From Verrucomicrobiota bacterium (GTDB lineage: Bacteria; Verrucomicrobiota; Verrucomicrobiia; Limisphaerales; UBA1096): 13,825 nt of DNA. Positions 1 through 13,170 of this stretch are shown piece after piece. Under the pieces are notes generated by a model, which saw only the letters and a program-made list of their open reading frames with translations, searched no databases and was not told where the DNA came from. The translations under genes and the position numbers were made by a program. The stretch lies in the NCBI GenBank assembly GCA_015658765.1, contig DQOE01000234.1:1-13825 (forward strand), given 5' to 3'. Position 1 is the first letter of the stretch. Each line of letters begins with the position of its first letter.

Positions 1-1557
1 AATTCAAGGACCGGTTTCCAGACAGAAATCAAACAGCTAAAGACATGGATCTCCGGACGCCTGACATGGATGGATACCCAGTTTGACTCCATCCCGTCAC
101 CCCTGTTGAGCATCACCGAGGGTGCCGCCCTGCCCGGTTTCCAGCTTGGCGTAAGCGTGCAAAGTGACGAGGTGTATTATACGACTGACGGCACGGATCC
201 GCGCATGCCAAACGGCGACATCAACCCAAGAGCCACCCGGCTTGGCGAGGCGGAAACTGAACCGATCATCCCGATAAACTCCGAGTGGAAGTACCTCGAC
301 ACGGGAACCAAACTCGACAAGGTCGATTGGACCGCTATCGAGTACGACGACAGCGAATGGAAAAGCGGCAAAGCCGAGCTTGGCTATGGCGACGGCGACG
401 AGGCCACCGCAGTTGATCGCGGTTCAGAGCCCAGCTCGAAATTCCACACAACCATCTATTTCCGGAAGGAGTTCCAGATGGGAGAATCGATCGACAAGTC
501 GCTGCTTATCAAGCTGTTGCGAGATGACGGTGCCGCTGTTTACCTGAACGGACGCGAGTTGTTCCGAAGCAACATGAAACTGGGAACGATTCGTTATGCC
601 ACTTACTCAATTAAACGAAACTCCTCCAAGAACAGCCGCATCTTTTTCCCCTACTTCGTTGAAGTTCCCAAGTTCAAGACGGGCAAAAATGTCTTCGCCG
701 TCGAGGTGCATCGTGGCTCCCGGTCCGACAAGGATCTGAGCTTCAATTTTGTTGCTTCCGCCCTGGACGCATCCGGCATACCGGTCACCATCGACAAGAC
801 ATCCACCATTACCGTCCGCGCAAAAAACGGCGAAACCTGGAGTGCGCCAGCCACTGCGTCGATTGTCATTTCCCCCTCGGCAGCGCTCAAGGTCACGGAG
901 TTGATGTATAATCCGACGGACGGAAAAACGTTCGAGTTCATCGAGTTGAAAAACCTCAGCGGCGCTCCTCTCGACTTGGCGGGCGTTAGTTTCTCCGGCG
1001 TCCGGTTTACGTTCGACGAAGGGACGCTGGCACCGTGGGAGTCCGGTGTCCTCATCCCCAACGACGACCCGGCGGCGTTTATCGCGAAATACCCGGACGC
1101 CCCCATCCTCGGCACCTACGGCGGCAGCCTCTCCAACTCAGGCGAGGAACTTCGCCTGCTCGATCCCGATGGCCAGATCGTTTTCTCGGTTAATTACTCC
1201 GCCGACAGCCCTTGGCCAAGCAAGGCGGACGGCGTCGGCTCGTCGCTCGAGCTCGTGTCGCAACTGGCCAGTGAGCGTGACCCGTCCAACTGGCGGGCAA
1301 GCCTCGTGCCCGGCGGCACCCCAGGTGACATTCTGTTTTTATCCACCGAATTAAGCCTTACGGGTGGAAGGATGGCCATCCGATTCCTGGCGCTTCCCGG
1401 CAACACGTATTCCCTTCATACCAGCGACGACCTCGCCTCAGGGAAGTGGAGAAAACTAGAGGCAAATGAATTCGTAACAAGAATGAAAGTCGTTGAGTTC
1501 GTAGTCTCGCCTCACGATGGCGAAGGACAGCAGTTCTACCGTGTTTCAAGCCCATGA
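1..1557 (+). CDS. CotH-kinase/lamin-tail-domain secreted protein, C-terminal part (5' end outside window)
   Basis: The frame is open to the first base, so the gene starts upstream; 518 residues are visible. The first ~30 residues, with LKTWISGRLTWMDTQF, match the end of a CotH kinase-like domain. Next come a chitobiase/hexosaminidase C-terminal-like segment (YYTTDGTDP, about 58-80) and a galactose-binding-like beta region (about 95-245) carrying LLRDDGAAVYLNGREL. A lamin-tail domain follows (about 292-440; VTELMYNP, FEFIELKN, SNSGEELRLLD). A last beta segment ends in GQQFYRVSSP. This domain order is common in large exported proteins of Verrucomicrobiota. Their role is unproven; surface attachment or polysaccharide binding is likely. 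The stop overlaps the next start as ATGA, so the two genes are probably co-translated. An internal ATG at 70 could be mistaken for the start, but it lies inside the CotH motif. Confidence 0.85.
   Translation, partial: NSRTGFQTEIKQLKTWISGRLTWMDTQFDSIPSPLLSITEGAALPGFQLGVSVQSDEVYYTTDGTDPRMPNGDINPRATRLGEAETEPIIPINSEWKYLDTGTKLDKVDWTAIEYDDSEWKSGKAELGYGDGDEATAVDRGSEPSSKFHTTIYFRKEFQMGESIDKSLLIKLLRDDGAAVYLNGRELFRSNMKLGTIRYATYSIKRNSSKNSRIFFPYFVEVPKFKTGKNVFAVEVHRGSRSDKDLSFNFVASALDASGIPVTIDKTSTITVRAKNGETWSAPATASIVISPSAALKVTELMYNPTDGKTFEFIELKNLSGAPLDLAGVSFSGVRFTFDEGTLAPWESGVLIPNDDPAAFIAKYPDAPILGTYGGSLSNSGEELRLLDPDGQIVFSVNYSADSPWPSKADGVGSSLELVSQLASERDPSNWRASLVPGGTPGDILFLSTELSLTGGRMAIRFLALPGNTYSLHTSDDLASGKWRKLEANEFVTRMKVVEFVVSPHDGEGQQFYRVSSP
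1211..1220. repeat. Palindrome CTTGGCCAAG, copy 1
   Basis: Exact 10-bp copy within the lamin-tail gene, read as P-W-P-S in that frame. Confidence 0.9.
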
Positions 1558-2978
1558 CAACGCGCAACCCATCCGGCAACCTACCGCCGCTTGCGGGTGT
1601 CTGCACCCTCGAGGAGGCCCAGCGGCCCGGCCTGCCCGTGGAGGAGTGCGTCCGCCGACTGAAACGCTTTCACTACACACTTAAGCGGCTACACCAGGTT
1701 TTCAACAATCGCATTTCCTCCGAGCCGGTTTATGAGTTGAAGATGGCCTTCAGCCTCCACTCACACTACTGCGCGGAGCACGTCGCCGCCCTGCGCAAGC
1801 GTATCGGCGAGATGCGCGAACCCCCGCTTGGCCTCGAGACGCTGCCCGACAAGCATCTGGAGATTTTTTTTGACGAGATCCTCGCCGCCCCCACCACTGG
1901 CGAGTTGTTCCTTGGGGTTTACGAGGTAGCTCTCCCTTCGCTGCGGGATGCCCTGCGCCAACACCTGGCTGACACCAACCCGCTGGCTGACCACCCAAGC
2001 GTACGGCTGATCCGGTTTGCGCTGCTCGAGATCAACGAGATGATTGCGCTTGGCCAAGCGACCAACGACTCGTTGCTGGATACGGATCAACGCGCCGAAA
2101 CCGAAGGCTGGCTTGGCCTGTTGAACAACTGCCTGGCCAATGCCGGTGGCCTGGACGGCACCGCTGAACCGGCGCAGCAACCGGTCGGGCGCCAACGCTC
2201 GGCCAAGCCGTACCAGTACGACAGTGTGCCCAGGCGGGACGCGCGATTTCCCGACCCGTTCAACATGGGAGTCAATGCCGAGGCGTTCCTGTACGACGAA
2301 CAATACCCGCCGGAACCCAAGGCGCTAATGATGTTTTACAAGCGACTCCGGGAGATCGACGTGCCGGAAATGATGTCCAGCATCATCGCCGAGACGCCGG
2401 GCAAACCGTGGGGCTACTACCGCGACATGACACGCCAACTTTGGGACGAGGCGCGCCACGCCATGATGGGCGAGGTGGGCTTCGTGAACCTCGGCATCGA
2501 CTGGCCCAGCAAGGTCATGATCAATCACAACTGGTCCCTCGCCCTCAACGCGCAACTCACCCCGATGGAGCGCCATGCCGTCCTCTACTTCATCGAGCAG
2601 GGGTTGATGCCCCGGACGGGGAAACGCTTCGAGTGGGAAGTGGCCCGGGATTCCAACAACCCGTTGTCCGCGCTGTTTCAGGATTATGACTGGGCTGACG
2701 AGGTGCTGCATGCGCGCATCGGCCGCGACTGGTACCTGCCGGAATTCGACAACCCCAAGGCGGCCATCGACTACGGTGATGACTGCTGGTCGCGTGTGTT
2801 GATGGACTGGAACCAATACCGCAAGGACAGCAAAACGGAGCATCGCAACTGGTGGCCCGACCTCTACAGCGCCGCCTGCAAGGCGCGGAACATCGAGCCC
2901 GACCCCAATGTGATGCGTTTCAGCACATCCTACGAGACGGTTCGAGCTGATTTGAGAGCTATTTCAGCTTCGGGGTAA
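1554..2978 (+). CDS. Ferritin-like (putative diiron) protein, uncharacterised
   Basis: 474 residues, cytosolic, with no signal peptide or membrane segment. The N-terminal half (about 30-165) is helical with long E/H-rich helices such as KMAFSLHSHYCAEHVAALRK. The C-terminal half holds two ExxH motifs typical of diiron four-helix bundles: WDEARHAMMGE (E299, H302) and ADEVLHARIGRDW (E383, H386). Further acidic candidates are E280 and E348. The pattern recalls the ferritin-like DUF455/MiaE-type families, but I cannot assign it to one. A metal-dependent oxidase or hydroxylase role is inference. It begins with ATG overlapping the stop of the CotH/lamin-tail gene, an odd partner for a redox enzyme. 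A region rich in Gln, Arg and Pro (about 205-235) probably links the two halves. Certain as a gene; product uncertain. Confidence 0.8.
   Translation: MTTRNPSGNLPPLAGVCTLEEAQRPGLPVEECVRRLKRFHYTLKRLHQVFNNRISSEPVYELKMAFSLHSHYCAEHVAALRKRIGEMREPPLGLETLPDKHLEIFFDEILAAPTTGELFLGVYEVALPSLRDALRQHLADTNPLADHPSVRLIRFALLEINEMIALGQATNDSLLDTDQRAETEGWLGLLNNCLANAGGLDGTAEPAQQPVGRQRSAKPYQYDSVPRRDARFPDPFNMGVNAEAFLYDEQYPPEPKALMMFYKRLREIDVPEMMSSIIAETPGKPWGYYRDMTRQLWDEARHAMMGEVGFVNLGIDWPSKVMINHNWSLALNAQLTPMERHAVLYFIEQGLMPRTGKRFEWEVARDSNNPLSALFQDYDWADEVLHARIGRDWYLPEFDNPKAAIDYGDDCWSRVLMDWNQYRKDSKTEHRNWWPDLYSAACKARNIEPDPNVMRFSTSYETVRADLRAISASG
2047..2060. repeat. Palindrome CTTGGCCAAG, copy 2 (14-bp perfect)
   Basis: CGCTTGGCCAAGCG, within the ferritin-like gene, read as L-G-Q-A. 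Confidence 0.9.
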
Positions 2979-3022
2979 TTTTTGCATTTTCCTTAAAACC
3001 ATTTTCATCCAGTATCCCGCCG

Positions 3023-3526
3023 ATGCGATTGCGCCGTCTGGCCCGCGAACGGGCCATCCAGTTCCTGTTTCAACATGAGATGAACCCTCCCGAGGCAATC
3101 GAGGAGGATCTTGAGCGCTTTTGGGAATCCCAAACCAGCGCCGCAATCGCCGAGGATCACAAGGCGTCCACCTGGGGTGAGGCATCCGAGCCGACGACGC
3201 CGACCTCCGAGGACGATGAAGTACGGAAGTTTGGCGATCCCCTCATACGCGGCGTCCTGGAAAAACTCACCGAGTTGGACGGCATCATCGAGGAACAGAC
3301 ACGCAACTGGGATATCGCCCGCATTGCCAAGGTGGACCGAAACATCCTGCGACTGGCCATTTACGAGATGCTGCACCGGGAGGACATCCCGCCGGTCGTC
3401 AGCATCAACGAGGCGATCGACATCGCCAAAAAGTTTTCCACTGAGAACAGCGGACGATTCGTGAACGGCATTCTCGACAAGGTCAAGGGCAAGCTCATGC
3501 GCCCGGCCCGAACGACCGCCAACTGA
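3023..3526 (+). CDS. nusB: Transcription antitermination factor NusB
   Basis: 167 residues. The NusB fold is recognisable from RLARERAIQFLFQHE at the N-terminus and from DPLIRGVLEKL, VDRNILRLAIYEML, PPVVSINEAIDIAKKF and RFVNGILDKV towards the end. NusB binds boxA RNA with NusE (S10) in rRNA antitermination. It is about 28 residues longer than E. coli NusB (139 residues). The extra length is a polar, acidic, Thr/Pro-rich stretch at about 36-66, between the N-terminal helices and the core helices. Translation starts at ATG; no good ribosome binding site is visible. It lies 44 bases after the ferritin-like gene and 22 before the PHP gene, so it probably leads a nusB-PHP-ftsY operon. Confidence 0.93.
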   Translation: MRLRRLARERAIQFLFQHEMNPPEAIEEDLERFWESQTSAAIAEDHKASTWGEASEPTTPTSEDDEVRKFGDPLIRGVLEKLTELDGIIEEQTRNWDIARIAKVDRNILRLAIYEMLHREDIPPVVSINEAIDIAKKFSTENSGRFVNGILDKVKGKLMRPARTTAN

Positions 3527-3546
3527 GCAAACTCACTGGGAGAAAC

Positions 3547-3558
3547 GCTTGGCCAAGC
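3547..3558. repeat. Palindrome copy 3 (12-bp), holds a start codon
   Basis: GCTTGGCCAAGC; the TTG at 3549 is the start codon of the PHP gene, read M-A-K. Confidence 0.9.
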
Positions 3559-4397
3559 CATTGATCGACCTGCACCTGCACACCCTCTACTCGGACGGCG
3601 TCTCCACCCCCGAGCAAGTGGCCGAGGAGGCGCAGAAAATGAACCTTGCCGCCATTGCGCTGACCGACCACGACACCATCGAGGGCTGCCCGCGCTTGGC
3701 CAAGGCCTGTGCCGAGCGCGACATCGAGTTCATCCCCGGCACCGAGCTTTCCACCGATATCGATGGGCACGAAATGCACCTACTCGGCTACTACCTCGAC
3801 ACGGACAACGAGGAACTGATCCGCGAAACCACCCGCTACCAACAAAACCGAACCGATCGCGTCCACGGCCTGGTTCGGCAGCTCAACTCGATCGGGGTGG
3901 CCCTGCACGCCGATCAGGTTTTCGACCTGGCCAAGTGCAAGGCACCCGGCAGGCCGCATGTGGCCCGGGCACTGGTGAAGCACCGCTTTTGCAGTACAAT
4001 GGACGAGGCATTCACCCGTTACCTGCGGAAGAGCGCGCCGGGCTGGGTTCCCAAGGTCAACGTCGGCGTCGATGAGGGCATCCGGCTGATCCACCAGGCT
4101 GGCGGCTTGGCTGTGATGGCTCATCCCAGCCTCAACAAGATCGACCACTTGATCCCCCGCCTGGTTGAGGCCGGCCTCGACGGTCTCGAGTGCTGGCACA
4201 GCAGGCATCCCAAGAGCACCGCCAAGCGTTACCGCGAAATGGCCGCGCGCCTTGGCCTGCTCATCACCGGCGGGTCGGATTGCCACGGCCCGTCCCGGGG
4301 CCGGCATCCCCTCATCGGGACTGTTCGCGTGCCGTACGAAATCCTCGATGAAATGAAACGCCGCCTCCCCCGCTCCACCACGAGCAGACGAATTTAA
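3549..4397 (+). CDS. PHP-domain phosphoesterase (YciV/RNase AM-like 3',5'-nucleotide phosphatase/exonuclease)
   Basis: 282 residues with a full set of PHP metal ligands: DLHLHTLYSDG (H9, H11, D16), TDHD (D40-D42), E66 in GTELS, H77, MAHP (H192) and GSDCHG (D244, H246). The segment PGRPHVAR (133-140) is typical of the COG0613 branch that includes E. coli YciV/Rnm. Those enzymes act on 3',5'-bisphosphonucleotides and trim 5' ends of short RNAs. Substrate here is inferred from family. The only sensible start is TTG at 3549, with GGGAGA about 8 bases upstream. The start codon lies inside the 12-bp palindrome GCTTGGCCAAGC (3547-3558). Only 4 bases separate its stop from ftsY, so coupling is likely. 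Confidence 0.88.
   Translation: MAKPLIDLHLHTLYSDGVSTPEQVAEEAQKMNLAAIALTDHDTIEGCPRLAKACAERDIEFIPGTELSTDIDGHEMHLLGYYLDTDNEELIRETTRYQQNRTDRVHGLVRQLNSIGVALHADQVFDLAKCKAPGRPHVARALVKHRFCSTMDEAFTRYLRKSAPGWVPKVNVGVDEGIRLIHQAGGLAVMAHPSLNKIDHLIPRLVEAGLDGLECWHSRHPKSTAKRYREMAARLGLLITGGSDCHGPSRGRHPLIGTVRVPYEILDEMKRRLPRSTTSRRI
3695..3704. repeat. Palindrome CTTGGCCAAG, copy 4
   Basis: 10-bp copy within the PHP gene, read L-A-K, 137 bases after copy 3. Confidence 0.9.
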
Positions 4398-4401
4398 CCA
4401 G

Positions 4402-5313
4402 ATGGGTTTGTTCACAAAATTCTTTTCCGGTCTGAAGAAGACGCAGTCCAAGTTATCGACCGAGATCCGCCGGATCATCACCCGCTCACCCAAGCTCACC
4501 GAGGACGATATCGAGGAACTCGAGGCCGCCCTGCTCGCCTCCGACATGGGCCTTGCGGTCACTGGGCGCATCGTCGATGCCGTCCGTGAAAAATACGAGT
4601 CGAGCGGCGGCAAGTCGGGTAGCGTGCTCGAGGTCGCCCAGGCGGAAGTCATGTCGTGCCTCGGCGACAACACCGCCCGCTTGGCCAAGCACGACGGGTT
4701 GACGGTCGTCTCGCTGATCGGCGTGAATGGCGCCGGCAAAACCACCACCGCTGCCAAGCTCGCCCACCGCGTGAAGGCCGACGGCGGCAAACCGATGTTG
4801 GCCGCGTGCGACACCTTTCGCGCCGCCGCCATCGAGCAGTTGAACCTCTGGGGCACGCGGCTCGACATCCCGGTTGTCAGCAGCAACTACGGCGCAGACC
4901 CCGCCTCAATCGCCCACGACGCCGCCAACTCAGCGCTTAGCAAGGGCAATGATTATCTGTTCATCGACACCGCCGGCCGACTCCATACCAAGCACAACCT
5001 GATGCGCGAACTCGCGAAACTGCACCGCGTGATCGGCAACAAGGTCGATGGCGCGCCGCACGAAACGCTGCTCGTGATCGATGCCTCCACCGGGATGAAC
5101 GCGCTGAACCAAGCGCGGGAATTCAACAAGTCCGTCCCGCTGACGGGGCTGGTCATCACCAAGCTCGACGGCACCTCGAGGGGCGGAATGGTGGTGGCCA
5201 TCCAGCACGAACTCGATTTGCCGGTCAAGTTCATCGGGCTGGGCGAGCAACCCGACGACCTCCAGCCCTTCTCTGCGGCCGACTACGCCCGGGCGCTTTT
5301 CTTCGAGGAATAA
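4402..5313 (+). CDS. ftsY: Signal recognition particle receptor FtsY
   Basis: 303 residues: the NG domains of the SRP receptor GTPase, which docks SRP-ribosome complexes at the inner membrane for co-translational insertion. Seen in order: an N-domain helical bundle (about 1-95), G1 GVNGAGKTTT (from 107), DTFRAAAIEQL (137-147, typical of SRP GTPases), G3 DTAGR (189-193), G4 TKLDG (253-257) and closing GLGEQPDDLQPF (279-290). It lacks the long acidic A domain of E. coli FtsY and starts almost directly with MGLFTKFFSGLKK, a short amphipathic helix that may bind lipid. Such short forms are common outside enterobacteria. It follows the PHP gene by 4 bases. All GTPase motifs are intact. Confidence 0.96.
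   Translation: MGLFTKFFSGLKKTQSKLSTEIRRIITRSPKLTEDDIEELEAALLASDMGLAVTGRIVDAVREKYESSGGKSGSVLEVAQAEVMSCLGDNTARLAKHDGLTVVSLIGVNGAGKTTTAAKLAHRVKADGGKPMLAACDTFRAAAIEQLNLWGTRLDIPVVSSNYGADPASIAHDAANSALSKGNDYLFIDTAGRLHTKHNLMRELAKLHRVIGNKVDGAPHETLLVIDASTGMNALNQAREFNKSVPLTGLVITKLDGTSRGGMVVAIQHELDLPVKFIGLGEQPDDLQPFSAADYARALFFEE
4679..4690. repeat. Palindrome copy 5 (12-bp)
   Basis: GCTTGGCCAAGC in the N/G-domain border of ftsY, read L-A-K just before the G1 loop region. Confidence 0.9.
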
Positions 5314-5370
5314 GCGCTCCCTTTTGATTCGCTTTGGCCGAGTTGCTTGGTGTTTTGCGGCCCGATACCG

Positions 5371-5928
5371 ATGAGGAACCCTGTCTTTATCCTGGCTCAA
5401 ACCACCCCCGGCACCAACAGCCCACCTGCCGGAACCGACACGGCTGCGGAGGGTTCGTCTGCAATCGCCGGGGTTTTTGATTTCGGCGCGCTTGGCCTCC
5501 TGCTCGAGGCAGGGGTTTTCATGTGGCCCATTTTGCTGATGGCCCTGATTGGCTTGGCGGTCATCATCGAGCGTTGGCGCAGCCTGAAAATGCAGGACGT
5601 GGACGTCGGCGAACTCAAGCAGGCGGTCCTAAACGACCTCACAGAGAACCGGGTTGGAAAGGTCGCCCGGGACGCCGCCCTCGCCATTGGCTACACCTAC
5701 GAGGAACAGTCAAAAAAGAAAGACGCCATCAAGTGGTTCCAGCGGACGTGCAAGCTCTACCCCAGCACCCGCAACGCCAGCAAGGCTCACGCCCATTTGA
5801 AAAAAAATACGGCATCAGCGTCACCCTCGGTGGCTCAAGGGAAAAATGATCCCGCGCGTGGGGTCTTGACGTTCGTGGGTTTAATTGGCAACCCTCGCCT
5901 TGGCTGCAACCCAAGGCCGCCCCGGTAG
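5371..5928 (+). CDS. Chimeric ORF: MotA/TolQ/ExbB-like N-terminus joined to a TPR-like C-terminus, probably frameshifted
   Basis: 185 residues from ATG 5371 (a TTG at 5347 is possible). Residues 1-100 look like the start of an ExbB/TolQ-type proton-channel protein: a Thr/Pro-rich lead and one membrane helix (about 41-66; MWPILLMALIGLAVIIERW). At about residue 101 the sequence turns into a TPR end, with ALAIGYTYEEQSKKKDAIKWFQ and LYPSTRNASKAHAHLK. The ExbB core helices TM2 and TM3 are absent. After an A8 run at 5800-5807 the frame ends in a low-quality tail that runs 10 bases into tRNA-Arg. One extra A, or a -1 slip, would instead give KYGISVTLGGSREK and stop at 5849, a far more natural TPR end. 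The gene may be a deletion relic, a slippage-decoded gene or an assembly artefact. Function as a proton channel is unlikely. Confidence 0.55.
   Translation: MRNPVFILAQTTPGTNSPPAGTDTAAEGSSAIAGVFDFGALGLLLEAGVFMWPILLMALIGLAVIIERWRSLKMQDVDVGELKQAVLNDLTENRVGKVARDAALAIGYTYEEQSKKKDAIKWFQRTCKLYPSTRNASKAHAHLKKNTASASPSVAQGKNDPARGVLTFVGLIGNPRLGCNPRPPR
5897..5917 (+). other. 7-bp perfect hairpin just upstream of tRNA-Arg
   Basis: GCCTTGG (5897-5903) pairs with CCAAGGC (5911-5917) around a 7-base loop, ending one base before the tRNA. There is no T run after it, so a classic intrinsic terminator is unlikely. It could be a leader fold in the tRNA precursor. It lies in the meaningless tail of the preceding ORF, so coding constraint does not explain it. 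Confidence 0.4.
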
Positions 5929-5995
5929 CTCAACTGGATAGAGCGTCTGCCTTCTAAGCAGAATGTTGTGGGTTCAAGTCCCGCCCGGGGTACCA
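5919..5995 (+). tRNA. tRNA-Arg (anticodon TCT), CCA encoded
   Basis: A full cloverleaf can be drawn. The acceptor stem is GCCCCGG with CCGGGGT (G1 faces U72, the other six pairs are Watson-Crick). The D stem is GCTC/GAGC. The anticodon stem TCTGC/GCAGA holds loop CTTCTAA, giving anticodon TCT, which reads AGA and perhaps AGG. The T arm is GTGGG-TTCAAGT-CCCGC. Discriminator A is at 5992 and genomic CCA at 5993-5995. The preceding open frame runs 10 bases into it, which argues that that frame's end is not genuine. Confidence 0.96.
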
Positions 5996-6029
5996 TTTGT
6001 TGGCTTCACCAAAACCGTCGTGCGTGGCT

Positions 6030-6947
6030 TCAGTGGGTCATGGCGTAGATGAGGATGTTGATTCCCATCGGGTATGATTTGGGCTCGGAGAAGTTTTTAA
6101 AATACCATTCACTGACGCCTTCCTCCTCCCAGCCGTCGCCGATGTCGGTGTTGTGGCAGGCAACGCCCATCATCCGGCCTTTCTTGTCGAAGTAGGCGTA
6201 GAAATGCGGCTCCGGCGGCATGACGTCGTACCGCTTTGTCTCCCAGGTGACACCGCTGTCCAGCGCCTGTTGCGCCGTGGCGAACCGATCCACATACCAG
6301 TCTTCGCTGGGCACCTGCGGCTTGCTGTCGAGTGGGAACACGTGGCTGAACAGCGGGTGTTCCACCGGCAAGTCCACCGGCTCGACATCGGGCAACACTC
6401 GCTTCATTTCCCGGTAAAAGGCTTCCCACTCCGACTCACTCCAAAAGTCGTCCGCCATGAAAAAGCCGCCGCTGCGCAGATATTTGCTAAAGCCCTTCAC
6501 CTCATCCTCACCAAGGGACATTGAGCGGGGATCGGTGATGTAAACGAAAGGATACCCATAGAGCTTTTTCTCCGTGAACTGAACAACGGCGCCTTCGGGA
6601 TCGGCCTTGATGGCGGTGAGCTGCTCGATGCGGTGGGAAAAGTTTAGGTCTGCGTTGGGATAATCCACCCGCCATCCACCACCCCCCCGCCCATAGCCTG
6701 AGTATTGTATGCGGGTAAATGTGAACTTGTCATGGGGCATCTCGGCATCGTTTTCCCATTCCGGCACACCACCTCTTCCGCCTCTGCCAAACCCGCCGCG
6801 GCCACTGCGGCCACCGGGATCACGAGTCCACTGCGCCACAGCCGCCGCTGCCAGCAGAATCGCAGCCAGTATCGGCAAAACAATTTTTTGTGTCCTGGTT
6901 TTCAACGGTCTCGCTTGGCCAAGCGGTTGGCTCGGCGAAAGATCCAT
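6030..6947 (-). CDS. DUF4159 domain-containing exported protein
   Basis: 305 residues. A signal peptide or N-terminal anchor (about 17-39; KTRTQKIVLPILAAILLAAAAVAQ region) follows a 15-residue lead. Then comes a short Gly/Arg-rich stretch (about 45-61, RGGFGRGGRGG). The DUF4159 domain covers about 72-305: FTFTRIQYSGYG, RIEQLTAIKADPEG, YPFVYITDPRSMSL, LRSGGFFMADDFW, HPLFSHVFPL and a MGINILIYAMTH end. DUF4159 resembles a glutamine-amidotransferase-like fold and often sits in MoxR/DUF58 gene sets. None of those partners is here, and the function is unknown. The start is ATG at 6947; an in-frame TTG 14 codons later (just before KTRTQK) gives a cleaner signal peptide and is a serious alternative. 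The lead between them contains a 14-bp palindrome copy. It converges with tRNA-Arg. Confidence 0.85.
   Translation of the reverse strand: MDLSPSQPLGQARPLKTRTQKIVLPILAAILLAAAAVAQWTRDPGGRSGRGGFGRGGRGGVPEWENDAEMPHDKFTFTRIQYSGYGRGGGGWRVDYPNADLNFSHRIEQLTAIKADPEGAVVQFTEKKLYGYPFVYITDPRSMSLGEDEVKGFSKYLRSGGFFMADDFWSESEWEAFYREMKRVLPDVEPVDLPVEHPLFSHVFPLDSKPQVPSEDWYVDRFATAQQALDSGVTWETKRYDVMPPEPHFYAYFDKKGRMMGVACHNTDIGDGWEEEGVSEWYFKNFSEPKSYPMGINILIYAMTH
6912..6925. repeat. Palindrome copy 6 (14-bp perfect)
   Basis: CGCTTGGCCAAGCG in the pre-signal lead of the DUF4159 gene (L-G-Q-A), or in its leader if the downstream TTG start is used. Confidence 0.9.
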
Positions 6948-7017
6948 ACGTTATTGGCGTGAGAATTGTTACGGCACGCCGGAAAAAAGCGAGGCAAGCG
7001 TTTGTTGGCAACTGGTT

Positions 7018-7923
7018 TCATGTGGCGGGGATGTAGCGCTGAAACAACAGGGCCAAGCCGAACAGCCCGAAAAACACGATACCCATCTGCATGTCCTGGT
7101 TCGCCGCGAGCAGGAAGTCGAACAGCACAATACCGGCAAGCAGCCCGGAGACGGTTCGTCCGTGTTGCGGCATCATGGACTTGAAGGTGAACAGCAAACT
7201 TCGAACCGTCCACAACGCATACAAGCCAGCCGCAACCATCACTCCGCGCCATGCCACGTCAGCATCCCCGTGGCAATATGGCAGCGCGAAAGCGAGCGCC
7301 AACGGCAACCCAAGCAGCCAGCACGGCCATGAGTTGACCCGGCCGCCTGTGGCTTCGCGCCGGGCAATGTTGCTTAACCCGACGATGTACGCCCACAGCG
7401 CAACAGCGCTTAAAACAACCGTGAGGCCAAGCGACCCCGTGGCGGTTGCCCCGGCCAGGAGATACAGGAGCAAGCGGCACAGCCCCATGAGTAGCGGCGA
7501 CCAAGCCGTGCGTTTGTGCAGCCAGTCGTACACCAGAATGCTCCCGGCCAAGCCAAGCGCGCAGAGCGTCGCCAAGGTGTTCACCCAGACGAGGCAACCA
7601 AGGCCGAGCAGCAGTTGGCCAATGCCCAGCACCCAAACCGCCTTGACGCTGATGGCGCCGCTGGGGATCGGCCGCCCGGAACGATGCTCGCGGTCGAATT
7701 GAACGTCGAAGGCGTCATTGAGAAACATGCCCGCAAGAAAAAGCAGCGTCGCACCGGCAATAAGCCAGGCAAAGCGCTGCACATCCGCCGACTCGACCAA
7801 CGCGCCCCCGGCCAGCAACCAGGCGGCGAGACAGTTCGACCAGACGGTGGGCAGGTTGGAGACGCGCCCCAGCAGCAGCAGAGCCTTCACGCAACCGTAG
7901 GATGAATCGCGCTTCGGGCGCAT
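7018..7923 (-). CDS. eboC: UbiA-family prenyltransferase (EboC-type)
   Basis: 301 residues and very hydrophobic, with about eight or nine membrane helices. UbiA enzymes move a prenyl chain from an isoprenoid diphosphate to an acceptor in the membrane. The first Asp-rich motif NDAFDVQFDREHRSGRP is intact (N69, D70, D73, D77) and should bind Mg-diphosphate. The second loop, YDWLHKRTAWSPLLMGLCR, has the pattern seen in EboC rather than MenA or UbiA proper. ATG 7923 was chosen over an upstream in-frame start at 8001, because 8001 would overlap eboE by 77 bases and add non-family residues. Only one base separates it from the eboE stop. It is the last gene of the ebo-type operon. The acceptor substrate is unknown; the EboC name rests on sequence type plus neighbours. 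Confidence 0.85.
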   Translation of the reverse strand: MRPKRDSSYGCVKALLLLGRVSNLPTVWSNCLAAWLLAGGALVESADVQRFAWLIAGATLLFLAGMFLNDAFDVQFDREHRSGRPIPSGAISVKAVWVLGIGQLLLGLGCLVWVNTLATLCALGLAGSILVYDWLHKRTAWSPLLMGLCRLLLYLLAGATATGSLGLTVVLSAVALWAYIVGLSNIARREATGGRVNSWPCWLLGLPLALAFALPYCHGDADVAWRGVMVAAGLYALWTVRSLLFTFKSMMPQHGRTVSGLLAGIVLFDFLLAANQDMQMGIVFFGLFGLALLFQRYIPAT

Positions 7924-7924
7924 A

Positions 7925-9103
7925 TCAGTCAGCGGGGTGTATCCCCTGCTCTGCCAGTTTGGCCAATGTCCAGTCGTATTCCCCGGCGAGTTGATCAACA
8001 ACGTCGCGCTGCTTCAACTCACCGGGCAATACTTCCCACGTGTAGGTTTCCATCTCGATGTGCGAACAGATCGCCGGATTGGCTGCGAGCGTCTCGATGA
8101 CGCGCTGCAGTTGATCGGCAGTCGTGTCGAACAACGCAGTCGGCGGGCAATGTAGCGGAACGTGAAAGTGGATTCTCCACTCGGTGTCGTCGCTTGTCTC
8201 GCCACGTGCGGCGGCGGCCAAGGCATCCGGCAAGTCGCGGTACCTCGTGAGCGAACCGTCCGCGCCATTGGCCACAACCTGGTGAAAGTAAATATCCTCG
8301 GCAAAGCCGGCCAAGCCGTCGAGCGTCTCGGCGTTTGGGCGCACCTTGAGCGCGGAACTGAAATGCAACTTGCTGATCCGGACTCCCTCGGCGATGAGTG
8401 AGCCAAGCGCGGCGGCGGCCTCCTCGAACTCGACAGCCAAGTGACAGGCGTCGTAGTTGATGCCCAAGCGCCTGGACAAGCGATCATCGCCGGGGCGGTC
8501 GTCGCGGAGTTGTCGGTAAAACCGGATCATCTCGCCGGTGGTTTCGAGATAACACAACGGCTCCGGCTCGAGTCCGAGATGCAAATCCTTGCCGGTCTTT
8601 TCGCTGAGCGCGTCGATGTGCTCGACCACATCCCAAACATTGCGGCGCATGGCCTCGACCTGCTCGCCGGTGTTGATGAATTCCTTGAAGGAACACGGCA
8701 CCGTGCTGACGCTGCCGCCCGACTCCGCCGGAGCGATCACGGCCAAAATATCGAACAAGCGCTTGGTGTACTCGACGCGTTCGACGGTGGTCCAATCCGG
8801 CTTGTAAACCTGTTCCTTTACCCGTTTTCCGTGAAAGTCGCCATACGGGAACCCGTTGATGGTGAACACGTAACACTCATTTTGCTCGAGCCAAGCGCGG
8901 AATTTGTCTAGCTCGTCCGCTTGGGCAAGCTGGCGGGATGCGTTGTCGCCCAGGCGTAAGCCGATCGCGTACGGCTTGCCGCTGCTCACGCGGTCACGCA
9001 CTCGGAGCGTGTGCTCGTTGAGCGAGCGGAACGTCTCTGGCCAATCGCCGCCGCGATGGATGTTTGTGCAGTAGGCGAGATGGATGCCGTGGCTGAGCCT
9101 CAT
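7925..9103 (-). CDS. eboE: Metabolite traffic protein EboE (xylose-isomerase-like TIM barrel)
   Basis: 392 residues, soluble, with the TIM-barrel pattern of sugar-phosphate isomerase/AP-endonuclease-2 proteins. Marks of EboE include LSHGIHLAYCTNIHRGGDW at the start, INGFPYGDFHG (about 82-92), LGLEPEPLCYLETT, GINYDACHLAVEFE, ISKLHFSSALKV, IHFHVPLH and HIEMETYTWEVLP near the end. The conserved Glu, Asp and His residues are probably metal ligands. In cyanobacteria the ebo genes are needed to bring a scytonemin precursor to the periplasm; the reaction of EboE itself is not known. The start is ATG 9103. The 16-base gap to eboB is almost entirely the 12-bp palindrome GCTTGGCCAAGC, leaving no room for a normal ribosome binding site, so translational coupling to eboB is likely. 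Confidence 0.9.
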   Translation of the reverse strand: MRLSHGIHLAYCTNIHRGGDWPETFRSLNEHTLRVRDRVSSGKPYAIGLRLGDNASRQLAQADELDKFRAWLEQNECYVFTINGFPYGDFHGKRVKEQVYKPDWTTVERVEYTKRLFDILAVIAPAESGGSVSTVPCSFKEFINTGEQVEAMRRNVWDVVEHIDALSEKTGKDLHLGLEPEPLCYLETTGEMIRFYRQLRDDRPGDDRLSRRLGINYDACHLAVEFEEAAAALGSLIAEGVRISKLHFSSALKVRPNAETLDGLAGFAEDIYFHQVVANGADGSLTRYRDLPDALAAAARGETSDDTEWRIHFHVPLHCPPTALFDTTADQLQRVIETLAANPAICSHIEMETYTWEVLPGELKQRDVVDQLAGEYDWTLAKLAEQGIHPAD

Positions 9104-9107
9104 GTGC

Positions 9108-9119
9108 GCTTGGCCAAGC
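9108..9119. repeat. Palindrome copy 7 (12-bp), intergenic
   Basis: GCTTGGCCAAGC fills 12 of the 16 bases between the eboB stop and the eboE start, so it is non-coding here. Confidence 0.92.
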
Positions 9120-9932
9120 TCATAGCCCCTCGGGCGCAGTGAAGCGCGGGCTTTGACTCATGAACTCGATCGGGTTTTGGTAAATCACCTTGTCGATTTG
9201 CCCCGGGTCGCTGCCTCGGCGTTTCATTTCCTGTGCCGCCCGTGGCACGGCCAACGGCACGCTGATGCCCCAGTCGCACGCGCTGTTCATCCAGATGCGC
9301 TCGTTGCCGTACAACTCGAGAATATCGATCGCCCGGTTGGAGGTGCACTTGGTTTCCGGATACAGGGTCATGCCGGCCCAGAAGCCGTCGTCGAGCACCA
9401 TGCCGACGGTGTGCTCCTCGACGTGGTCAATGATGCAGCGCTCCGGCCTGATGCGGCTGTCGCTCTTGAGCGCGTCGAGAATCAGGCGCGTGCCCTTGCG
9501 CTTGTCCTCAAGGTGCGGCGTGTGAACGAGGATCAACTGGTCGTTGCTGGCCGCCAAGTCGATGTGTTTCTCGAGGACGAGCATCTCGTTTCGGCTGTTT
9601 TTGTTCAGGCCGATCTCGCCGATACCAAGGACGTTGGGGCTGCCCATGAATTCCGGGATGATCGCCAGCACCTCGTCGGCGAGTTTGAGATCCTCCGACT
9701 CCTTCGGGTTGATGCAAAGCCAGGTGTAGTGCGGCAGGCCAAACATCGCGGCTCGGCGCGGCTCGTGCTGGGTGAGTTGGCAGAAGTAGTCGTAAAAACC
9801 CTGCACCGAGCTGCGGTCGAAGCCGGCCCAGAACGCCGGTTCGCTGACCGCCTGGCAACCGGCCATCGCCATCGCCTGATAGTCGTCGGTCGTGCGGCTG
9901 ACCATGTGGCCGTGTGGCTCAATGTAACGCAT
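9120..9932 (-). CDS. eboB: TatD-family metal-dependent hydrolase (EboB-type)
   Basis: 270 residues with the amidohydrolase/TatD metal site: HGH near the start (H7, H9), GIGEIGL (E106), LVHTPH (H137, H140), IIDHVEEHT (H170) and SACDWG (D220). TatD enzymes are Mg-dependent phosphoesterases or nucleases. Members placed beside EboE and a UbiA enzyme form the EboB branch, whose substrate is unknown. All ligands are present, so it should be active. It starts at ATG 9932, 12 bases after the small upstream gene, with GAAG a few bases before the start. It fits second place in the ebo-type operon. Confidence 0.88.
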   Translation of the reverse strand: MRYIEPHGHMVSRTTDDYQAMAMAGCQAVSEPAFWAGFDRSSVQGFYDYFCQLTQHEPRRAAMFGLPHYTWLCINPKESEDLKLADEVLAIIPEFMGSPNVLGIGEIGLNKNSRNEMLVLEKHIDLAASNDQLILVHTPHLEDKRKGTRLILDALKSDSRIRPERCIIDHVEEHTVGMVLDDGFWAGMTLYPETKCTSNRAIDILELYGNERIWMNSACDWGISVPLAVPRAAQEMKRRGSDPGQIDKVIYQNPIEFMSQSPRFTAPEGL

Positions 9933-9944
9933 CGTCTTCGCCGG

Positions 9945-10220
9945 TTAAGCGTTGTCCGCGCCGGGCCAGGCACCGCAGGCGGCCTTGGTGGTTGCCGCGA
10001 GAATCGGTTCGTCTGTGGGGTCACTGAACGCCAGCAGCACCTTCCCGGCGCGATCCGGTTTCCCGCTCTCCAGCGCCTTGAGAGCAGCGCGAAAGGCGTC
10101 GTAGCGGAAATCGTCGCCGCCATTGGCCCGGTCAACACGATCCATGAACGCCGCAATGTCGATCAACCGCGCCCGGGCATCCAGAAAGTACAGGTCGAGT
10201 ATGTTTTTTCGGTCAGCCAT
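9945..10220 (-). CDS. Conserved-looking small protein at the head of the ebo-type cluster, function unknown
   Basis: 91 residues, soluble, no signal peptide. It is mostly helical: ILDLYFLDARARLIDIAAFM, then FRYDAFRAALKAL, then a short SDPTDEP turn and an ACGAWPG end. I recognise no named domain. It is far shorter than the EboA proteins I know of, and no EboA motif is apparent. Its position directly before eboB, on the same strand with a 12-base gap, suggests it belongs to the same pathway, perhaps as a small helper subunit. Start is ATG 10220; GGAG lies only two bases upstream, which is closer than usual. It contains four Cys/Trp/His residues at most, so an independent metal site is unlikely. 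Confidence 0.75.
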   Translation of the reverse strand: MADRKNILDLYFLDARARLIDIAAFMDRVDRANGGDDFRYDAFRAALKALESGKPDRAGKVLLAFSDPTDEPILAATTKAACGAWPGADNA

Positions 10221-10270
10221 ATCTCCGTGTAAAGGAGGGAAATAAACACCCGAACCGCCTTGTTGGCAAT

Positions 10271-11218
10271 CTATTGCTGATCGCCGGTTGACCTGACATT
10301 AATCATTCGCCAGACCCCGGCGGCAATGCTGCCAATGATGCAGTGCGTCACGGCACTGACAGCACACGGCACGGCGACCAACGGTAGGGCCGTAAAATGC
10401 TCTGTCGCCAAGGCGGTACCCAAGCCGCTGTTTTGCATCCCTACCTCGATCGATACCGTACGACTCGACTGCTCGTCGAATTTCATCAACTTGGCCAAAC
10501 CGTAGCCAAGCCCAAAACCCGCGACGTGCAACAGCAACACTGCGGCGACAAGCATGCGCCAATTCTCGAGAATGGAGTCACGGTTTTGCGCGAGGATGTA
10601 GCCAACAATCAGGATAATGAACACTACCGAGACGAACGGCGACACGACGGCGACACGTCTGGCCGCCTTGCCAAAAAAGCGGTTGATCCCAACACCGGCG
10701 GCGACAGGCAAAATCACGATGATCAAAATGCTCTGCAACAAGCCAAGTGCATCAACCGACACCCGTTCGTTTACATACAATTTAGTGAGCAACGGTGTCA
10801 GCACCACGGCCAGCATAGTGGAGATGCCGGTCATGCTGACGGACAAAGCAACATTCGCCCGGGCGAGAAAGGCGACGACATTCGAGGCGGTCCCTCCGGG
10901 GCAGCAGGAAACCAGCACCAAACCAACGGCCATGTCTCTCGGTAGTTGCATCATGTGACCGATGCCCCAACCCAGGAACGGCATCACTGCGAATTGAAGA
11001 GCCACGCCGCCAAGCAGAGCAAACGGAATCACGAACACCCGCCGGAAGTCGTCGAGTGTCAGCGTGAGCCCCATTCCCAGCATGATGATGCCAAGGCCAA
11101 CTCGGATCATCGTGCCGGAGTACCAGTCGAATGCGCCCGGCCAAGCCAGGGCCACCACCGCCACAAGGACAGACCAGAGCGGGAAAAGGTTGGTCAGCCA
11201 GCGAAAACAGGTTTGCAC
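10271..11218 (-). CDS. Bile acid:sodium symporter (BASS) family transporter
   Basis: 315 residues with about nine or ten membrane helices. Family marks are FPLWSVLVAVVAL in the first helix, IIMLGMGLTLTLDDFRRV, CCPGGTASNVVAFLARANVALSVSMT (conserved Na+-site loop), and EVGMQNSGLGTALA near the end. BASS proteins take up organic anions with sodium: bile acids in animals, pyruvate, 2-keto acids or pantoate in plants and bacteria. The substrate cannot be told from sequence. I chose GTG 11218 because it puts the first helix near the N-terminus, as usual; an in-frame TTG at 11272 would add 18 residues. It lies 50 bases upstream of the 91-residue gene on the same strand, so it may lead the ebo-type operon and carry its substrate. 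Confidence 0.88.
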   Translation of the reverse strand: MQTCFRWLTNLFPLWSVLVAVVALAWPGAFDWYSGTMIRVGLGIIMLGMGLTLTLDDFRRVFVIPFALLGGVALQFAVMPFLGWGIGHMMQLPRDMAVGLVLVSCCPGGTASNVVAFLARANVALSVSMTGISTMLAVVLTPLLTKLYVNERVSVDALGLLQSILIIVILPVAAGVGINRFFGKAARRVAVVSPFVSVVFIILIVGYILAQNRDSILENWRMLVAAVLLLHVAGFGLGYGLAKLMKFDEQSSRTVSIEVGMQNSGLGTALATEHFTALPLVAVPCAVSAVTHCIIGSIAAGVWRMINVRSTGDQQ

Positions 11219-11234
11219 GCGCGAATTGAGCCCC

Positions 11235-11244
11235 CTTGGCCAAG
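11235..11244. repeat. Palindrome copy 8
   Basis: 10-bp copy in the divergent region between the BASS transporter and LysM genes. It is non-coding if the GTG start at 11218 is right; otherwise read W-P-R. Confidence 0.9.
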
Positions 11245-11318
11245 CGGCGGCAATCAAAAATTTACGAAACAACCGGCTTCGGCTTGAGTTTGCGGGAGCA
11301 CGGACTTACGTTGCTGGC

Positions 11319-11903
11319 ATGAAGCGTTTGTTGTTGTTTACCTCGTTTTTGGCAACGGTTTGTCTGTTGGAAACCTCTCCCGCCATGGCCAAGGGGCCTT
11401 CACTCGATGCACGTGCCATCCGGGAGGATTATCGCCGACTGCAGAGCCAACTCGAAGACCTGCTCATGGCCCATAACGCTCTCAAGAGCGAACTCTCAAA
11501 ACTCCGAAGCGAGGTGCGGCTGCTGCGGGCCAAGACCGCGACAAAAGATACCGCCACCGCCACCCGTGACGACCTCGAGGGCCTGGCCAAGTCCATCCGC
11601 GAAGTGGATCGAAAACGCGTGCAGGACAAGGATTTGATTCTCAAGGAAATGAAAGCCCTGCTTCGATCCGGCTCGAGTAGTGGGAGGACAACCAAGACCT
11701 CCCCCAATTCCCAAAAAAGTTTTGAGCATACGGTGCAGAAAGACGAAACCATCTCGGCCATCATCGCCGCCTACAATGCTGATTTAAAAAGTCAGGGCGG
11801 AAAAAAGCGAATCACGCTCAAGTCGGTTCTCGACGCAAACCCGAAGCTGAATCCGCGAACGATGCGAATAGGGCAAACACTGTTTATTCCCGATCCGAGG
11901 TAG
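11319..11903 (+). CDS. Secreted coiled-coil protein with C-terminal LysM domain
   Basis: 194 residues. A signal peptide (MKRLLLFTSFLATVCLLETSP, probable cut after AMA at 24) is followed by a coiled coil (about 34-70, with LQSQLEDLLMAHNALKSELS) and a charged helix (about 84-117). A Ser/Thr-rich linker (118-134) leads to a LysM domain at 136-191, seen in HTVQKDETISAIIAAYN, LKSVLDANPKLNP and RIGQTLFIPDP. LysM binds peptidoglycan GlcNAc chains, so this is probably a periplasmic wall-binding protein. ATG 11319 is preferred over an open-frame extension to 11064, since that would overlap the divergent transporter and bury the signal peptide. No catalytic domain is seen. Confidence 0.85.
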   Translation: MKRLLLFTSFLATVCLLETSPAMAKGPSLDARAIREDYRRLQSQLEDLLMAHNALKSELSKLRSEVRLLRAKTATKDTATATRDDLEGLAKSIREVDRKRVQDKDLILKEMKALLRSGSSSGRTTKTSPNSQKSFEHTVQKDETISAIIAAYNADLKSQGGKKRITLKSVLDANPKLNPRTMRIGQTLFIPDPR

Positions 11904-11929
11904 CGCTCGCCAACCAACCGAACGAGCAA

Positions 11930-12295
11930 TTGGAATTCCTGTCAGAGAACTGGGGGTTAATTATCTGGGCCGTTCCCGGGGCATGGGGGTTAATCGTCCT
12001 GACGATCTTTTGGGCAATGCCCAGAATTGATTTCCGCGTCGGCTCGAAGGCCGTGGTGGTGGAGTGGATGGGATTTGCCCTGCGCAGAATACCACTGTCG
12101 GATATCGGCCGCATTTCAAAACGCCTCAAGGGCAAGCCGGAAGTTTGGCGCAACACGCTGAGGGGGAACCACCGTATGCTGGTTTTGTACCGCAAAAGCG
12201 GCAAGCGGCCGGTCGTGATCACACCGCACAACCGGTATATCTTCCGCAACCAACTCGAAACGAGTCTCGAGCGATTGGCAGCACGGGCCGATTAA
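11930..12295 (+). CDS. Small membrane-anchored protein, possibly PH-like
   Basis: 121 residues. One membrane helix lies at about 8-29 (GLIIWAVPGAWGLIVLTIFW). A short basic, beta-rich domain follows (about 33-121; FRVGSKAVVVEWMGFALRRIPLSDIGRI, then RMLVLYRKSGKRPVVITPHNRY). This strand-strand-helix layout resembles bacterial PH-type domains such as those in YcxB/DUF304-like proteins, but the match is weak. Start is TTG 11930, since no ATG or GTG in frame precedes the membrane helix. It follows the LysM gene by 26 bases and probably shares its transcript. Its TAA stop overlaps the TAA of the convergent hpnD gene within the bases TTAA (12292-12295). Confidence 0.7.
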   Translation: MEFLSENWGLIIWAVPGAWGLIVLTIFWAMPRIDFRVGSKAVVVEWMGFALRRIPLSDIGRISKRLKGKPEVWRNTLRGNHRMLVLYRKSGKRPVVITPHNRYIFRNQLETSLERLAARAD

Positions 12296-13170
12296 CCGTA
12301 AACCGGCCTGTAGGCCGTGCGCCTCAACCAAAGCCAGGTTTTCAACCCTATGGCCAGCTTGGCCAAGCGACCGGTTTTTAACCTGCGCCGATTCGACTGA
12401 AAGGCATTGTATCGCACAGCGCGAAGTTTCATCAGCAACCGCCAATAGATCGCACCCATGGCTTCCGAGGCGACGAGCTGGTGTTTCTGCCCGAGCGGGA
12501 ATGATTCGCGAGCCAGCCGGTAATGCGCCCAGGCGCGTTCGGCGATTTCCTGTGCGGCGTTTTCGTAACCAACAGTGAAGCGACCCTCCAGAATATCACT
12601 CTCGTCGACCGAGTGTTTTTCGAGCATCGATTGCGGCAGATAGATCCTGCCTCGCGCCGCATCCTCGGCGACGTCGCGCAGGATGTTGGTCAACTGCAGC
12701 GCTTGGCCAAGGTTTTCCGCGTAGCGTTGTGCCGTTTCACCATCGCAACCAAAAATGCGAATGCTCAAAAGCCCCACCACCGAGGCCGCACGATGGCAGT
12801 AAAGTTTCAATTCGTCGAAGTCACGGTACCGCGTTTTTTGCAAGTCGGACTCCATGCCAATGAGCAACTCGTCAAACAAGCTGAACGGCAAATTGTATTC
12901 CCGGATAGACGGTCGCAACTCGCGGCAGACCTCGAATTGAGGCTCGCCCCACTCGCACGCGCGCCGAATGTCGTCCCTCCATCGCTGCAGCTTTTCGGCG
13001 CGCTTGGCCAAGGGCACAGCGTCATCGTCTGCGACATCATCCACCTCCCGGCAAAAGGCGTAAAGCGCGACCATCCCTCTCCGCCTGGCCTTGGGGAGCA
13101 AGAAAAATGCGGCTGCCAAATTGGAGCCGCTTTTCGCCGTAATCAACTGGCTTTGTGAGACTTGCGTCAC
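12292..13170 (-). CDS. hpnD: Presqualene diphosphate synthase HpnD
   Basis: 292 residues of the squalene/phytoene synthase superfamily. The two Asp-rich Mg sites are intact: YAFCREVDDVADDD (D44-D50) and QLTNILRDVAEDAARGRIYLP (D166, D170). HpnD joins two farnesyl diphosphates into presqualene diphosphate, which HpnC and HpnE turn into squalene for hopanoids. Residues such as LLIGMESDL, YCHRAASVVGLLSIRIFG and GQALQLTNILRDVAED fit HpnD better than HpnC or CrtB, though I could not test this by alignment. No hpnC, hpnE or shc is in the window. Start is GTG 13170, overlapping the stop of the upstream small gene as GTGA. The C-terminus is basic and poorly conserved. Confidence 0.88.
   Translation of the reverse strand: MTQVSQSQLITAKSGSNLAAAFFLLPKARRRGMVALYAFCREVDDVADDDAVPLAKRAEKLQRWRDDIRRACEWGEPQFEVCRELRPSIREYNLPFSLFDELLIGMESDLQKTRYRDFDELKLYCHRAASVVGLLSIRIFGCDGETAQRYAENLGQALQLTNILRDVAEDAARGRIYLPQSMLEKHSVDESDILEGRFTVGYENAAQEIAERAWAHYRLARESFPLGQKHQLVASEAMGAIYWRLLMKLRAVRYNAFQSNRRRLKTGRLAKLAIGLKTWLWLRRTAYRPVYG
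12357..12368. repeat. Palindrome copy 9 (12-bp)
   Basis: GCTTGGCCAAGC near the C-terminal end of hpnD, read L-A-K on the reverse strand. Confidence 0.9.
12702..12711. repeat. Palindrome CTTGGCCAAG, copy 10
   Basis: Within hpnD just before the second Asp motif, read L-G-Q-A. Confidence 0.9.
13003..13012. repeat. Palindrome CTTGGCCAAG, copy 11
   Basis: Within hpnD shortly after the first Asp motif, read L-A-K; hpnD alone holds three copies. Confidence 0.9.

Follow-up and report, generated by a model that had tools for sequence, protein, structure and literature searches.

Sequence-specific nucleoid and partition proteins such as ParB/Noc and MatP recognise palindromic sites. Among motifs repeated in large number, the closest described systems are the DNA uptake sequence (DUS) of Neisseriaceae, whose receptor is ComP, and the uptake signal sequence (USS) of Pasteurellaceae, these two proteobacterial families being the only ones known to have such uptake motifs according to a 2025 paper (PMC12616744), as well as the highly iterated palindromes (HIPs) of cyanobacteria, namely HIP1 (GCGATCGC) and the alternate HIPs. 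HIPs occur at ~500–2500 copies per Mb, are mostly at least 75% guanine plus cytosine (GC), deviate mostly at their outer positions and are associated with a methyltransferase whose target is part of the motif (Elhai 2015; PMC4390886). Here, we analysed a 13,825-nucleotide stretch (the window; position 1 is its first letter) from a Verrucomicrobiota bacterium (contig DQOE01000234.1), in which a reading of the letters alone (the original prediction) had singled out the palindrome CTTGGCCAAG as over-represented and HIP1-like. We consider CTTGGCCAAG, with a full form close to SCGCTTGGCCAAGCGS, to be probably a DNA uptake sequence that is spread through the genomes of one Verrucomicrobia genus, which record and isolate names suggest to be marine.

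The motif resembles DUS and USS in being short, in occurring hundreds to ~1000 times per Mb within both coding and intergenic DNA, in its tie to natural transformation and in being common to related species; the DUS density of N. gonorrhoeae (967/Mb) is of the same order. However, it differs from them in belonging to another phylum, in being a perfect palindrome with a 14–16 bp consensus and in its helical phasing, and whereas known members often form inverted-pair terminators, Verrucomicrobia copies behind stop codons lack a T-run. A literature search that covered few subscription papers found, among the papers listed, no earlier description of the motif, nor one of an uptake tag of palindromic form or in Verrucomicrobia.

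All 11 exact copies of CTTGGCCAAG were found where the original prediction had placed them, as were the three additional 8-bp cores (TTGGCCAA), and the near-zero expectation was borne out by 200 dinucleotide shuffles of the window (mean 0.01, maximum 1). TTGGCCAA and CTTGGCCAAG were by far its most frequent 8- and 10-bp palindromes (14 and 11 copies; next 4 and 2). An extended context with G/C flanks, claimed for seven copies, was real but applied to six (GCTTGGCCAAGC, at 2049, 3548, 4680, 6914, 9109 and 12358), the remaining five having C/C or G/G flanks. When the 8-bp flanks beside each core were compared, resemblance was confined to positions adjacent to the core and therefore the copies are not one duplicated element. 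Copies were read in three frames, within open reading frames (ORFs) on both strands, and one (9109–9118) lay between two ORFs, as had been proposed. The genome that holds the window (G000; 2.24 Mb in 433 contigs, 71% complete) contained 1278 copies compared to 5 of a reversed control; thus, the window is typical of its genome and no isolated cluster. In a 378-kb sample of a second genome, G008, we counted 291 copies where a trinucleotide Markov model expects 1.15.

The palindromic motif is 60% GC. Exact copies in G008 were preferentially flanked by C (0.76), G (0.70) and then C/G (0.87), and one-off variants were tolerated best at the outer positions 1 and 2, the TGGCCA centre being the least permissive.

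Motif counts were extended to 58 genomes, comprising 21 of the same genus (labelled G000–G020, all incomplete metagenome-assembled genomes (MAGs) and the only genus in the family as sampled) and 37 that each represented another family of the order. Eighteen of the 21 genus genomes contained 427–3274 copies, and G001, G005 and G019 were the poorest (41, 57 and 43, respectively), whereas the 37 other families contained 0–39 (control 2–33). Density, calculated as exact counts over rounded genome sizes, reached at least 500/Mb in 8 of the 21, and copies in motif-rich genomes were spaced about one per 1–3 kb. Two copies 52–53 bp apart were found in 98 contig stretches; of the 80 listed, 78 were titled Verrucomicrobia and the other two were an Acidiferrobacteraceae MAG and Bacillus. 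A viral scan returned 11 stretches with two exact copies each and showed no enrichment of the motif in phages.

Conservation was assessed in 1656 ordered orthologous ORF pairs among all genus genomes except the three poorest, a set in which one site may count several times and for which some loci were fetched because they bore the motif. TTGGCCAA was kept in 895 of 1358 cases (0.66) compared to 0.276 for all 8-mers, and at 45–70% protein identity the corresponding values were 0.52 and 0.154. Where the amino acid was the same, the CTT codon was kept at 0.96 inside the motif vs 0.64 elsewhere and TTG at 0.82 vs 0.57. This synonymous conservation, together with an intergenic excess, supports the original claim of a process at the level of the DNA itself, which codon use does not explain. 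From the genomes of this set into the three poorest, TTGGCCAA was kept in 5 of 51 cases (0.10 vs 0.028 for all 8-mers). The ftsY site of the window (4680) lies within a poorly conserved stretch of the protein and yet was identical at every base in 10 of the 11 motif-rich genomes examined (counting the one that holds the window), and it was missing in G018 and in motif-poor G005. TCGATCGA and AAGCGCTT, the latter being the junction of two touching sites, were also kept above the average 8-mer rate in high-motif orthologues.

Motif density followed the presence of genes for natural transformation. Family searches detected ComEC (PF03772) in 9 of the 21 genus genomes, and the first part of ComEC lay at a contig end in G006 and G012, giving 11 in total. 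The gene order at this locus was Ffh, ComEC, a VanZ-family gene, an Ig-like surface protein and AlaS; in its comparison, frame R6 is a shadow over ffh and frames R0, R1, R4, R5 and R12 may be shadows too, and the assignment of ffh rests on data independent of frame R6. DprA (PF02481) was detected in 12 of 21; G008 had a second, divergent DprA-family match (L325, G008:C11:9913–10518). ComEC and/or DprA were present in 13 genomes, all with 370–828 copies/Mb (G003 828, G008 818, G012 785, G013 748, G016 722, G004 574, G007 498, G017 492, G018 490, G006 478, G011 392, G015 390 and G014 370). Conversely, one or both genes were missing from an otherwise intact locus in five genomes with 15, 20, 23, 133 and 281 copies/Mb. 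ComEC was missing from between Ffh, VanZ and AlaS in G001 (15/Mb), G019 (20/Mb) and G009 (281/Mb), and in G020 (133/Mb) its slot (L297 10965–13341) was occupied by a different sequence, in which an open frame of 498 aa is unrelated to ComEC. DprA was missing from between HMGL-like and NuoN-like genes in G005 (23/Mb), G009 and G020. Family searches of these five incomplete MAGs gave no match to ComEC or DprA at any other position. The densities of the 13 and the five did not overlap, a separation with a chance of 1 in 8568 if genomes were independent, which they are not.

Relationships were taken from single-gene trees of FtsY and Ffh with midpoint roots. G001 and G019 paired beside G003 (828/Mb), and G005, in the other of the two trees, grouped with G016, G012 and G004; G020 stood beside G018 (490/Mb; support 88/86) and G009 beside G017 (492/Mb; 96/94). 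The losses would thus amount to about three separate events if the three low-GC genomes form one clade. The ratio of exact to one-off copies was 0.24 in G020, 0.32 in G019, 0.33 in G005, 0.42 in G002, 0.51 in G014, 0.69 in G011, 0.87 in G009, 0.94 in G007 and 1.10 in G000, and 1.2–6.1 in G010 and the other gene-positive genomes counted; the value of 1.9 for G001 was obtained from 8 copies in stretches partly chosen near sites. Overall, there was a trend towards site decay in the genomes with losses, but it was not clean, as G011 and G014 keep both genes. The three poorest species have 40–42% GC, but G009 is motif-poor at 59% GC; therefore, a drift in GC content is not a sufficient explanation of the low densities. 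With ComEC-positive whole-genome samples as the source, sites were retained in 62 of 87 cases in G008, 57/74 in G013, 29/47 in G012, 19/42 in G000, 6/14 in G016, 6/14 in G002, 4/11 in G011, 0/3 in G006 and 0/2 in G020. Site decay in G000 itself (36 of 120 kept) was considered and dropped, since retention relative to ComEC-positive genomes was approximately symmetric (19/42 and 17/34).

Taken together, the enrichment, the conservation and the co-loss with ComEC and DprA fit an uptake sequence kept up by transformation. Under such a mechanism, the transformation machinery would have a receptor at the cell surface, probably one of the minor type IV pilins, with a preference for site-bearing DNA. 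Imported DNA from kin would recombine through ComEC and DprA, and sites would thereby be copied back, gained and preserved to the observed spacing. Once ComEC or DprA was lost, this drive would end and the sites would decay; we infer that the change ran in this direction, from presence to loss. The list of possible roles in the original prediction included natural uptake, and that entry is favoured by the way transformation genes track the motif. If true, sequence-tagged uptake would extend to a further phylum in a third instance unrelated to those described, which would mean that such tags evolve repeatedly. The genus would also offer a natural experiment, with about three losses of ComEC or DprA and graded site decay, making the question of what maintains uptake sequences directly testable.

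Several observations weigh against this reading. No receptor gene was found, although whole gene content was not surveyed. G000 (570/Mb), G010 (705/Mb) and G002 (323/Mb) show neither gene, their loci not being resolved, and G011 and G014 have both genes and yet only 392 and 370 copies/Mb, with exact to one-off ratios of 0.69 and 0.51. The helix-hairpin-helix family PF12836 does not track the motif, and the poorest species keep 41–57 copies compared to ~5 expected (from the G001 sample). The five losses reduce to approximately three events on two midpoint-rooted single-gene trees, with G020–G018 support of only 88/86, and every genome is an incomplete MAG. Moreover, known uptake sequences are described as not being palindromes (PMC1939737), and oppositely oriented DUS pairs in N. 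gonorrhoeae showed no sign of phasing beyond 40 bp (z 0.1), a weak and small comparison of only 26 pairs.

Close neighbouring sites were in excess and in helical register. The period was fixed on a first sample and then checked against a separate 630 kb, in which 180 pairs at 14–160 bp gave a period of 10.4 bp, a phase of 0.0 and a z of 15.2, with none of 20000 jitters that preserved position modulo 3 (mod-3) being equally strong. Over 1.42 Mb, pooled TTGGCCAA pairs at 14–160 bp reached a z of 28.9; these are partly non-independent because of orthologous arrays, and therefore single genomes were tested separately, with 4 (G013), 15 (G008) and 2 (G010) of 20000 jitters as strong. Among 244 control 6-mers, the three with the highest cosine z (6.9, 4.8 and 3.2) were pieces of the extended motif and the next reached 2.9, compared to 7.6 for the motif. 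Phasing weakened with distance and was gone beyond ~300 bp; it occurred in every mod-3 class, which ruled out alpha-helix or codon periodicity as its cause. Weak TGGCCA sites were phased to strong sites (z 13.8) but not to one another (z 0.9), and no cluster of six TGGCCA inside 150 bp was found. An array with steps of 52–53, 63 and 21 bp was present in two different MAGs, and a second shared array (53, 49 and 128 bp) was only partly at whole turns; both were at loci fetched for a 52–53 bp step.

Phasing was also examined in the known systems. CGATCG, the inner site of HIP1, was not phased on 800 kb of cyanobacterial plasmids (448 pairs, z 0.98, mean cosine −0.013, standard error 0.033), and HIP1 gave a z of 2.5 on only 38 pairs, a count that left out L276, which is poor in HIP1. 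In the plasmid collection as a whole, several records with ftsY, NZ_CP119140.1 among them, have the size of entire chromosomes. In 550 kb of N. gonorrhoeae, 14 same-orientation DUS pairs gave a z of 1.8 and 130 opposite pairs a z of 11.7, the latter because of tightly spaced hairpin pairs that are mostly 15–25 bp apart. Helical phasing hints at the physical way in which a reader of the motif would bind DNA, and suggests one that touches several sites on one helix face, which may be the uptake receptor or a second protein. A more far-reaching version, which we put forward tentatively and hold to be somewhat less than an even prospect, is that a third self-recognition system for natural transformation has arisen independently in a group other than Proteobacteria, with a two-fold symmetric tag in helically phased arrays, a multivalent receptor (dimeric or a pilus-tip cluster) and one-face spacing as part of the uptake code.

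Phased palindromes would also suit an abundant nucleoid protein whose dimers bridge or oligomerise along one helix face, the sites being kept for chromosome architecture. The strength of the phasing in pooled and held-out DNA, its presence in all mod-3 classes and the excess of close pairs speak for such a protein, a palindrome suits a dimer, and cooperative binding in helical register, as with the palindromic sites of ParB/Noc and MatP, would yield such arrays. However, the motif is far more numerous than the sites of those proteins and its density follows ComEC and DprA, so that the collapse where these genes are lost is left unexplained; site density between convergent genes equals or exceeds that between divergent ones, and no candidate protein is known. 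We therefore regard this explanation as unlikely, although one protein could play both roles and it does not fully exclude an uptake sequence.

A site made or kept through a DNA methyltransferase, as in Elhai's model for HIPs, appears very improbable. The motif shares with HIPs its palindromic form, a density that partly overlaps theirs (up to about one per kb) and one-off sites that deviate mostly at outer positions. However, it has a GC content of 60%, and 20 of the 21 genus genomes had no match to C5, N6/N4 or D12 methylases (PF00145 1/21, PF01555 0/21 and PF02086 0/21), in a search that was positive in 10, 11 and 4 of 14 control genomes, respectively, and did not cover other families (for example, PF02384 and PF07669). 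Given these counts, the unphased CGATCG of cyanobacteria and a density that tracks ComEC and DprA, the HIP1 parallel and the methylation site of the original prediction were not upheld.

Placement relative to genes bears on a further alternative, an RNA-level or terminator element behind stop codons. Simple gene calls in G008 assigned 193 coding copies to L-A-K, 139 to L-G-Q and 19 to W-P, and placed 97 of 451 copies between genes compared to 69 expected by length. In 460 genes of G008 and G013, the density of the 8-bp core was 0.7–0.8/kb deep inside genes, ~1.8/kb in their first 100 bp, 2.75/kb within 50 bp before starts and highest, at 4.94/kb, 0–50 bp past stops. This peak, and a palindrome that by inspection could form a short hairpin, would suit a terminator, but no T-run follows the post-stop sites (1.89 vs 1.68 T per 10 nt) and most sites are intragenic, making this account less likely still. 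A promoter element was rejected despite the density before starts, as convergent gaps were as dense as divergent ones (1.90 vs 1.76/kb in G008; 1.80 vs 0.96/kb in G013). Least probable of all is an origin in composition, codon or protein effects, or low-GC drift in the poor species, which the 40–42% GC of the three poorest and the favoured L-A-K and L-G-Q frames might suggest, but which the G008 excess over the Markov model, the poverty of G009 at 59% GC, the kept synonymous codons and an intergenic density above coding together contradict.

Within the window, the exact site at 1211–1220 is read W-P in ORF 70–1557 (a lamin tail domain protein), and that at 2049–2058, with GCTTGGCCAAGC flanks, L-G-Q in ORF 1554–2978 (no Pfam family). 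The site at 3548–3557 lies ~20 bp past the stop of the NusB-family ORF 3023–3526 and covers the TTG given as the start codon of the PHP-domain ORF 3549–4397; the next, at 3695–3704 (L-A-K), is 147 bp (~14 helical turns) away. The ftsY site (4680–4689) is read L-A-K, and the site at 6914–6923 (L-G-Q) is close to the 5' end of a DUF4159 gene. The 8-bp cores are at 7615–7622 within a UbiA-family gene, at 7959–7966 where ORFs 7018–8001 and 7925–9103 overlap, and at 10491–10498 within an SBF-family transporter gene, the ORF of which has an exact site close to its 5' end (11235–11244). The intergenic site (9109–9118) follows the stop codon of ORF 9120–9932 at a distance of 1 bp and precedes ORF 7925–9103 by 5 bp, both ORFs being on the minus strand. 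Three exact sites fall in a squalene/phytoene synthase gene (12358–12367, L-A-K; 12702–12711, L-G-Q; 13003–13012, L-A-K).

Genes for a UbiA-family protein, a xylose-isomerase-like TIM barrel (below cut-off) and a TatD-like protein (just below cut-off) stand in a row at 7018–9932, and presumably resemble an ebo-type cluster. CTCGAG occurred 18 times in the window compared to ~7 expected.

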